Assembly: GCA_028288995.1 (NCBI GenBank)
Contig: JAQGHF010000004.1
Span: forward strand, 1 to 57,203
Origin: Candidatus Saccharimonadota bacterium
GTDB lineage: Bacteria; Patescibacteriota; Saccharimonadia; Saccharimonadales; Saccharimonadaceae
DNA: 57,203 bases
Direction of reading: 5' to 3'
A program made the translations under genes and the position numbers. Below, piece after piece: positions 24,837-26,619 of the stretch. Below the pieces are notes generated by a model. The model was not told the DNA's origin. It saw only the letters and a program-made list of their open reading frames with translations, and did not search any database. Every line of letters starts with the position of its first letter. Within the stretch, counting starts at the first letter, position 1.

Positions 24837-25241
24837 ATGAGAAAATCTAAAGATCCATCGTTCATTCTACAGAACGCAGTTCAAGGCCTGCTAAAACACG
24901 AAGCCATGCGCATCTGCAGAGACACCAACAGGTTCCTCCTGTCGCAACACATCGTGCCCGTCTGCACCCGGCGTTCAAAGAATTCCCGCTGGCGACAGAG
25001 AGGTGAACTTCTCGCCATTCCGATGGGGCAAACCGGGTTCGAGATGGACCGATTTCTCCTTCGCGATGGCACGCTCGTCGAGCCAGTCATGTCGAGCGCA
25101 AGATTCATCAAGAATCTTCAGCTCGATTTCGATGGGTTCTACGCACCCGCTCGCAGCGTGTATGGATACCCCGATGAAGACGTCTTGCTAGAAGTTCTCG
25201 CAGACATCTATGCCTTCCGTCAATCACCGGCTCACGTGTAG
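24837..25241 (+). CDS. Uncharacterised basic protein
   Basis: 134 residues, not recognised. The N-terminal half is basic (CTRRSKNSRWRQRGELL) and could bind nucleic acid. The C-terminal half is acidic (YPDEDVLLEVLADIYAF). There are two Cys (residues 27 and 42) but no zinc pattern. There is no clear Shine-Dalgarno before the ATG. It has a dedicated promoter with a long leader and a strong terminator 36 nt after the stop, so it is a self-contained unit inserted between pth and the RNA gene. Confidence 0.55.
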   Translation: MRKSKDPSFILQNAVQGLLKHEAMRICRDTNRFLLSQHIVPVCTRRSKNSRWRQRGELLAIPMGQTGFEMDRFLLRDGTLVEPVMSSARFIKNLQLDFDGFYAPARSVYGYPDEDVLLEVLADIYAFRQSPAHV

Positions 25242-25276
25242 TCGTCGCCAACAATGAGTATTGTCGAACAAAAAAG

Positions 25277-25298
25277 CCCGCCGTGTAAAAACGGCGGG
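25277..25298. terminator. Bidirectional GC-rich terminator
   Basis: CCCGCCGT, 6-nt loop, ACGGCGGG, with a T-rich tail on + (TTGTTCATTTT) and a run of T on - (A-run before the stem). It ends the basic-protein gene. Confidence 0.85.
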
Positions 25299-25335
25299 TT
25301 GTTCATTTTCGTATGTAAGTTAATAAGTTTCCAAT

Positions 25336-25375
25336 AAAAAACGCTCACAGTAAGGGTGGGCATCACTGTGAGCGT
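25336..25375 (-). terminator. Intrinsic terminator of the structured RNA
   Basis: ACGCTCACAGT/ACTGTGAGCGT, an 11-bp perfect stem with a 13-nt loop, followed on the minus strand by six T. It fixes the orientation of the RNA gene. Confidence 0.85.
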
Positions 25376-25697
25376 ATTTTACCCTTTAACCCACCCAGAT
25401 TTCTCAGCGAAGCGGTAGCGACCGTAGTAAATATATGGTGCGCGCCTGACTCTTACAAGAAGGGTCACTACTGTATAGTCACATAATTGAGAAATCTTTA
25501 TTGGGATCCCTTATCTCTCGAAAGAAACAAGGTGTTAAAGGGATTAGTATACACATAAGGCTGGCATCAGATTATAAATAATCAGAAGGCTCACGCAGTG
25601 GAGGGTAGTTACTACGCAAACACCGTATGTGTAACCTAACATAAGTTAGAATAGGGGGTATAAGGTGCTTGGTTAACCTCGCAGGACTAACCAATCG
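25336..25697 (-). ncRNA. Unidentified structured RNA, about 360 nt
   Basis: A full transcription unit without a coding frame lies on the minus strand: promoter at 25732-25704, predicted start near 25697, and an 11-bp hairpin (25341-25351/25365-25375) followed by T6 at the other end. Many nested stems are visible. They include 25669-25675/25688-25694 (TTGGTTA/TAACCAA), 25570-25575/25578-25583, 25506-25512/25538-25544 (ATCCCTT/AAGGGAT), and a 10-bp long-range stem 25397-25406/25488-25497. The last encloses an 8-bp stem 25416-25423/25463-25470 with one G-U pair. Its size suits tmRNA or RNase P RNA. However, I find no T-arm/CCA, no tag-like frame, and none of the RNase P conserved blocks. Confidence 0.7.
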
Positions 25698-25703
25698 CTT
25701 TGC

Positions 25704-25732
25704 ATTTTAGCACGTATTTGACATTAAGTCAA
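25704..25732 (-). promoter_or_regulatory. Promoter TTGACT-N17-TAAAAT of the structured RNA
   Basis: Minus-strand TTGACT (25732-25727) and TAAAAT (25709-25704), spacer 17 nt. It is divergent from dprA, whose ATG is 21 nt from the -35. Confidence 0.75.
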
Positions 25733-25752
25733 TACCTTCTAAAACAAAATCT

Positions 25753-26619
25753 ATGAAAATCAATACCATATCTCCAGATGAACATAATTTCTTTCAGATC
25801 ATCAATAGTATTGCGTCAAAACCGAAAACATTATATGTTGTTGGTTCACTCCCAACAGAGAGGTTTCCAAAATCAACAGTAGTGGCAGTGGTGGGAACAA
25901 GGAAACCTACTTCTTATGGTAAAGAAGTAACCTTTAAATTAGCTTATGACCTCGCCAAAAAGGGTGTCATTGTTGTCAGTGGGCTGGCTTTAGGGATTGA
26001 TGCAATTGCACATAGAGCCGCGCTAGAGGCAGGCGGAATCACCATTGCGGTTCTTGCTAACGGATTAGATTCCATCTATCCTGCGACGCACCGTCAGCTT
26101 GCACGGGACATTATTGATAGTGGGGGAGCACTCATTAGCGAATACCCGCCCGGAACGTCTGCCAGAGACTTCCAGTTCTTAGCTCGCAATAGAATTGTTA
26201 GTGGGATAGCCAACGCAGTCATCGTTACCGAAGCGGCCGCCCATAGCGGAACACTTTCAACTGTTATGCATGCGCTCGATCAAAATAGAGAAGTCTTTGC
26301 TGTGCCTGGCAATATCACCAGCCCAATGTCGGTCGGTCCGAATCGATTAATTCAACAGGGAGCGCACCCAGTGACGAGCGCTGATGATATCTTGCAAGTG
26401 ATCGCGCCTCATCTGTTAGAAACACAAACGACGCTTAATCTTGGCTCAAATCCTATGGAAATAGTGCTTATCGACCTCCTAAAAGCAGGGATCCGCGATG
26501 GCGATGCCTTGCAGCAAGCTTCAAACCTAGCGCCAAGCGACTTTTCCCAAACGCTCACAATGCTCGAAATCCAAGGGCTTATCAGAGGTCTAGGCGGTAA
26601 TCAGTGGACTATAATGTAG
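25753..26619 (+). CDS. dprA: DNA processing protein DprA
   Basis: 288 residues. DprA loads RecA on incoming single-stranded DNA in natural transformation. The Rossmann-like core is clear: VVAVVGTRKPTSYGKEV, VIVVSGLALGIDAIAHRAAL, VLANGLDSIYPATH, SEYPPGTSARDFQFLARNRI, EAAAHSGTL and VFAVPGNITSPMSVGPNRLI. A short C-terminal winged-helix-like domain follows. There is no long N-terminal SAM-like domain, so it is a compact version. The upstream neighbour is the divergent structured RNA. With recO and pilins elsewhere in the window it fits a competence capacity. Confidence 0.95.
   Translation: MKINTISPDEHNFFQIINSIASKPKTLYVVGSLPTERFPKSTVVAVVGTRKPTSYGKEVTFKLAYDLAKKGVIVVSGLALGIDAIAHRAALEAGGITIAVLANGLDSIYPATHRQLARDIIDSGGALISEYPPGTSARDFQFLARNRIVSGIANAVIVTEAAAHSGTLSTVMHALDQNREVFAVPGNITSPMSVGPNRLIQQGAHPVTSADDILQVIAPHLLETQTTLNLGSNPMEIVLIDLLKAGIRDGDALQQASNLAPSDFSQTLTMLEIQGLIRGLGGNQWTIM

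Follow-up and report, generated by a model that had tools for sequence, protein, structure and literature searches.

The window analysed here (the whole 57,203-bp stretch, positions 1 to 57,203 of the forward strand of contig JAQGHF010000004.1, GenBank assembly GCA_028288995.1, from a Candidatus Saccharimonadota bacterium of the family Saccharimonadaceae) encodes on its minus strand a standalone structured RNA of ~363 nt (window 25697–25335), and the sequence evidence supports its assignment to a new structured RNA family or class. An initial annotation of this DNA had raised a new RNA class as a possibility, and this is borne out by the lack of an Rfam match, covariation in three helices, presence across the order and apparently diverged forms in other orders. 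The interval given in that annotation, 25336–25732, is right for the RNA but also takes in its promoter; the 5′ end of the RNA would lie near 25697, as placed from the position of the −10 element, and the 3′ end would fall at the U-tract of the terminator. The features that delimit the gene are as follows:

25704–25732, minus strand: sigma-70-type promoter of the RNA (TTGACT −35 at 25732–25727, 17-nt spacer, extended −10 TG..TAAAAT at 25709–25704)
25335–25697, minus strand: the RNA (fold z −6.9; the next two matches span its 5′ and 3′ domains)
25534–25668, minus strand: match of covariance model R1
25327–25409, minus strand: match of covariance model R2
25335–25375, minus strand: P6, terminator hairpin and U-tract (from the sequence; 98.1% paired, 5 of 7 pairs compensated)

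The previously described consensus-like promoter, TTGACT-N17-TAAAAT, agrees with the consensus at 10 of 12 positions in a promoter scan and has a TG ahead of its −10 box, and a TTGA[CT] element lies upstream of the RNA in 84 of 85 homologues. The intrinsic terminator, which has the same orientation as the promoter, as had been annotated, is built of an 11-bp stem (25375–25365 with 25351–25341) and a 13-nt loop, followed by TTTTTT (six U in the RNA) at 25340–25335; it was read from the sequence, and its loop exceeds what the automated terminator scan accepts. The predicted fold of 25712–25336 has a free energy of −119.7 kcal/mol (z = −6.93), and none of 100 shuffled sequences folded as low. That no coding frame lies between promoter and terminator also holds: the longest listed minus-strand open reading frame (ORF) within the RNA is 40 aa long and starts with TTG, the longest ATG ORFs of the 85 homologues have a median of 28 aa and freely variable lengths, and no ORF is conserved among them.

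The secondary structure comprises the following elements in addition to P6:

25669–25696, minus strand: P1, 5′ hairpin, freely variable in sequence among homologues (predicted fold and homologue alignments)
25650–25668, minus strand: largely single-stranded conserved segment GCACCUUAUACCCCCUAUU, near invariant in alignments (mean unpaired probability 0.62 in 85 homologues)
25636–25649, minus strand: P2 hairpin, CUAAC-UUAU-GUUAG (both P2 and an alternative pairing conserved)
25623–25640, minus strand: 5′ strand of P3 (paired in 95.5% of cells; each of the 10 inner pairs compensated)
25543–25560, minus strand: 3′ strand of P3 (same covariation test)
25534–25542, minus strand: 5′ strand of P4, CCCUUUAAC (covariation test)
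25382–25390, minus strand: 3′ strand of P4, GUUAAAGGG (covariation test)
25396–25533, minus strand: variable middle domain, far shorter in many relatives

P4 is the long-range helix (25542–25534 with 25390–25382) that had been described as a 10-bp stem among several nested ones. With its two strands drawn from independent alignments, 99.1% of 777 cells from 87 loci are paired and 19 cells are compensatory (permutation mean 1.28, maximum 7 in 500), and sliding the strands out of register lowers pairing to ≤67%; strand pairs in homologues include CCUCUCGAC/GUCGAGAGG, CCCUUUAAG/CUUAAAGGG and CCCUAUAAC/GUUGUAGGG. P3 and P6 likewise show strong compensatory change, P3 having 87 double changes where shuffles have 25. 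The length of the whole RNA varies from 254 to 432 nt across the 85 homologues. The GUUAG of P2 pairs either with the CUAAC upstream of it or with a downstream CUAAC/U (P3a; CUAAU in the window RNA), and since both pairings are conserved this alternative could possibly act as a switch.

Comparison with known RNA families gave no assignment. A search of the whole window with Rfam 15 at gathering score returned two tRNAs only and nothing at the RNA locus; at E values up to 10 the locus gave only weak matches (best E 0.036) that lie far under the gathering scores and mostly cover terminator hairpins, and 14 diverse homologues, ranging from members of the family to representatives of other orders, gave none at E 0.05. 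A member of a known family that has diverged beyond the reach of Rfam, or alternatively a small mRNA, would account for such sub-threshold matches, but the 14 matchless homologues and the lack of a conserved ORF make either very improbable. Transfer-messenger RNA (tmRNA; RF00023) and type A RNase P RNA (RF00010), both already discounted from the sequence, do not match the locus and have their own genes elsewhere in the window's genome (G000:C5:347541–347919, 101.6 bits, and G000:C5:344316–344649, 259.5 bits, respectively); these two genes are on the same strand and ~3 kb apart. Neither 6S RNA (RF00013) nor signal recognition particle (SRP) RNA (RF00169, RF01854) matches at the locus or anywhere in the genome, and the multi-domain fold is not the rod with a central bubble of 6S RNA. 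The sequence AGGGUGG suggested a T-box, but no T-box model matches and the next downstream gene is on the opposite strand. Plasmid records contain no similarity to the RNA, and viral contigs contain no match to its 3′ motif, so there is no sign of a phage element. No earlier description was found in text searches of open-licence papers, so a prior report elsewhere is possible; the main text of two structured-RNA surveys does not mention Saccharibacteria or TM7. As a side observation, the absence of matches to 6S RNA and to the small and large bacterial SRP RNA models concerns a 98% complete genome (G000), and the possibility that Saccharibacteria have a diverged SRP RNA, or none, merits attention.

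The RNA is nearly universal in the order. In a DNA search of 61 genomes the locus turned up across the whole genus, and the family and order had short conserved blocks of it; the two covariance models, R1 for the 5′ domain and R2 for the 3′ domain, were built from 39 loci. Of 295 genomes sampled from the class, 163 match R1 and 252 match R2, nearly always once per genome for each model. Within the order R2 is present in 251 of 265 genomes; two others (G161, G297) are matched by R1, for a total of 253 of 265. Of the 12 genomes that the models miss, three (G153, G200, G259) carry the RNA upstream of dprA when the DNA is read directly (L121, L131, L118). A pattern scan of named genomes gave 117 stretches, whose listed titles are mostly Saccharibacteria with a few differently named bins, and carriers include Candidatus Microsaccharimonas sossegonensis and oral TM7 taxa HOT-348, -350 and -352. 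Outside the order the models hardly reach: in the 30 genomes of other orders R1 has no match and R2 has one weak match (G091, 5e-4) that adjoins dprA (L123), and in a phylum sample of 380 genomes only three weak R2 matches (E about 6e-4 to 8e-4) fall outside the order. The three weak matches outside the class (L127–L129) were set aside as chance; no such RNA was evident beside dprA in these genomes on reading.

In genomes of other orders dprA was located and the DNA upstream of it was read. In seven of them (L116, L117, L119, L120, L122, L123, L126) the strand divergent from dprA has a region that folds strongly (z −4.6 to −9.8) and includes a hairpin loop containing ACCCUCC, unpaired with a probability of 0.91–1.0. 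A TTGAC promoter lies upstream in six of the seven (it was not found in L123), and by eye most have a terminator hairpin, whose loop is often C-rich, as well as a closing helix formed by CCCUU and AAGGG. Because the models mostly fail to reach these RNAs, we infer their homology to the Saccharibacteria RNA from their position, layout and loop. Reading of the DNA upstream of dprA in genomes of other classes gave nothing comparable.

Exposed C-rich sequences are strictly conserved in the RNA, and three further elements are relevant here:

25599–25607, minus strand: loop B, apical loop UACCCUCCA with the anti-Shine-Dalgarno-like CCUCC (unpaired probability 0.91 in 85 homologues, 0.91–1.0 in each of the seven genomes from other orders)
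25355–25361, minus strand: loop T, GCCCACC in the terminator loop, invariant in the alignment (unpaired probability 0.86 in 85 homologues before any pseudoknot)
25390–25395, minus strand: GGUGGG, proposed pseudoknot partner of loop T (GGUGGG[UC] in 79 of 85 homologues)

Loop B reads ACCCUCC or ACCUCC. Over all positions of the 85 homologues the unpaired probability is 0.36, and in their other C-rich windows it is 0.28, both well under the means of loops B and T. The sequence of loop B is held constant while the surrounding helices change, and such a combination of fixed exposed loops with freely varying helices is characteristic of a binding site. Two genera carry UUACCUCC in this loop, an identical match to the 3′ tail of the 16S rRNA of the window's genome, GGAUUACCUCCUU. 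Loop T, on the other hand, more likely pairs inside the RNA as a pseudoknot: its complement GGUGGG[UC] occurs in 79 of 85 RNAs where 2.1 are expected, nearly always at one of two sites (before P4 only in 45, in the P5 hairpin only in 24, at both in 8), and this switching of sites between homologues supports the internal pairing. Such pairing also speaks for an RNA in which the C-rich loops act only internally, as pseudoknots, and the function is structural or catalytic, but on reading, the sequences from other orders showed no consistent internal partner for loop B; we think that a purely internal role of the loops is improbable. Within the order, pairing of loop B with AGGGU[A/G] beside P4 is variable.

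The reading that we tentatively place first, while granting it somewhat less than an even chance, is that the RNA regulates in trans and that its C-rich loop, which resembles the anti-Shine-Dalgarno sequence of 16S rRNA, pairs with ribosome-binding sites; here we infer transcription, action in trans and mRNA pairing alike. It is ranked first because of the exposed, fixed loops, the CCUCC core, the use of Shine-Dalgarno sequences by this genome and matches in start regions. Loop B, ACC(C)UCC, has CCUCC in common with the 16S tail. It would pair with G-rich ribosome-binding sites in a group of mRNAs and so block or retune translation initiation, and the 5′ single-stranded GCACCUUAUACCCC segment would perhaps pair with sites of the same kind. 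The GCCCACC terminator loop would fold back on GGUGGG and lock the 3′ domain closed by P4, the helices would serve as scaffold, and a promoter so close to the start of dprA would couple the output of the RNA to this locus, no function in competence being required. The novelty claimed here concerns the RNA family; this mechanism, if right, is a known kind of action.

Translation starts were examined in 246 start regions from the window and twelve 20-kb stretches of its genome (L253–L264). Shine-Dalgarno sequences occur in 33% of them, compared with 6–8% in controls. The start regions have 28 5-bp matches to the complement of loop B, where permuted loops have a mean of 11.5 and 2 of 42 permutations score as high, and the variant ACCUCC ranks first of 30. 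Complementarity of the 5′ segment to start regions looked enriched as well but was discounted, as TATAAGG, which forms part of that complement, looks like the −10 boxes that occur beside start codons. TATAAT, TATACT and similar hexamers are themselves enriched immediately before start codons, which points to leaderless genes and suggests that many mRNAs lack a leader beside the Shine-Dalgarno genes. In addition, GAGGGAA recurs 3–10 nt before the start codons of tatA-, recA- and lemA-like genes and others (in L254, L256, L262 and elsewhere), possibly as a Shine-Dalgarno variant or regulon motif; it matches loop B imperfectly (GAGGGU would fit) and was not counted as evidence for it.

Several points weigh against a ribosome-binding-site-directed regulator. 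The start-region enrichment fades at 6 bp (3 matches versus 2.0) and is lacking for loop T, and any anti-Shine-Dalgarno-like sequence would show it, so that this test cannot tell a regulator from mere anti-Shine-Dalgarno likeness. The C-run of the single-stranded segment is absent in two genera, many genes appear to be leaderless and would limit the targets, and no target, RNA chaperone or evidence of expression was identified. Finally, housekeeping RNAs, more typically than antisense regulators, are conserved nearly universally and in single copy across a class. It is possible, though we lean against it, that the RNA belongs to a housekeeping ribonucleoprotein and that its invariant loops bind protein, ribosome or RNA polymerase (as a 6S stand-in or other core RNA, for example) and not mRNAs. 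Its large size, multi-domain fold, fixed genomic place and usually single copy in nearly every genome of the order would suit such a role, as would a genome without matches to 6S or SRP RNA models. Nonetheless, it resembles none of the 6S, SRP, tmRNA or RNase P models, and, unlike typical ribonucleoprotein cores, the RNAs of other orders share little with it beyond loop B, whose exposure is kept in 7 of 7 genomes, and the closing helix. A broader proposal is that a previously undescribed RNA class, ancestral to the class containing Saccharibacteria, serves these reduced, epibiotic bacteria as a core global translation regulator or ribonucleoprotein by presenting, in an exposed loop, a mimic of the anti-Shine-Dalgarno tail of 16S rRNA; we judge it possible but less likely than not.

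Regulation through exposed C-rich loops has precedents, and the RNA has C-rich motifs in loops and single strands as do antisense small RNAs of the LhrC, RNAIII and RsaE type. RNAIII belongs to staphylococci and encodes a peptide; the Saccharibacteria RNA differs in having no conserved ORF, and Rfam relates it to neither RNAIII nor LhrC. RNAIII of Staphylococcus aureus masks Shine-Dalgarno sequences with its C-rich loops (PMC2837412), and like the Saccharibacteria RNA it is large and has conserved C-rich hairpin loops. LhrC of Listeria monocytogenes uses its C-rich motifs redundantly on a ribosome-binding site and has a similar layout of C-rich stem-loop, single-stranded stretch and terminator loop (PMC4132741); however, LhrC is multicopy, and the terminator loop of the Saccharibacteria RNA may serve internally. 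With 6S RNA it has in common that it is standalone, structured and broadly conserved in bacteria, but it is not one long hairpin. The raiA, OLE and GOLLD RNAs are large structured RNAs of narrow phylogenetic range whose function is unknown or partly known, and the present RNA is like them in size, structure and range but has other hosts and no match to them in Rfam.

If it is transcribed, nearly every genome of a very widespread bacterial lineage carries a large RNA that is outside all family libraries, and its retention in reduced genomes suggests an important role. To our knowledge, RNA-based regulation in the Candidate Phyla Radiation has been little explored. Genetic tools exist for cultured Saccharibacteria (PMC10633639), so the function of this RNA is directly testable.

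The RNA lies in a conserved block with the order der-pth-RNA-dprA-topA (GTPase Der, peptidyl-tRNA hydrolase Pth, DprA and TopA). In the window dprA starts at 25753 on the plus strand (TIGR00732, 243.6 bits versus a cut-off of 191), ~20 bp from the −35 box of the RNA. Among 39 loci, 33 have dprA as the divergent neighbour and 31 have pth adjoining, and der and topA are kept in the same block. In four loci with an intact RNA (L034, L035, L042, L043) dprA was not found beside it; in L035 and L042 topA takes its place as direct neighbour, and in L022 dprA seems broken. The suggested link to DNA uptake through dprA is accordingly weak: the order is conserved as a whole block with pth, der and topA in it, so that neighbourhood alone is no proof of a functional link, and persistence of the RNA where dprA is not adjacent leaves a competence role unsupported. 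In the gap separating dprA from the RNA lies a palindrome, TTGACATTAAGTCAA (window 25718–25753), that is readable as two −35 boxes placed back to back. Overlapping divergent promoters, with dprA possibly leaderless, are plausible from this arrangement, and the two genes possibly share a promoter region. The RNA might act locally on dprA, as a side product or cis element of a divergent promoter that both genes share, with its transcription excluding or tuning that of dprA. The short distance to the dprA start, the frequent divergent arrangement and a TTGAC-N5-GTCAA palindrome in 33 of 85 homologues fit this idea, but the palindrome is missing from most homologues, the RNA is kept away from dprA, and promoter interference needs no compensatory evolution over 300 nt of RNA; we judge it to be quite unlikely.

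On the other side of the RNA, between it and pth, a 134-aa ORF on the plus strand (window 24837–25241) has no NCBIfam match. A second, bidirectional terminator hairpin at window 25275–25300, just past the RNA terminator, probably ends this ORF.
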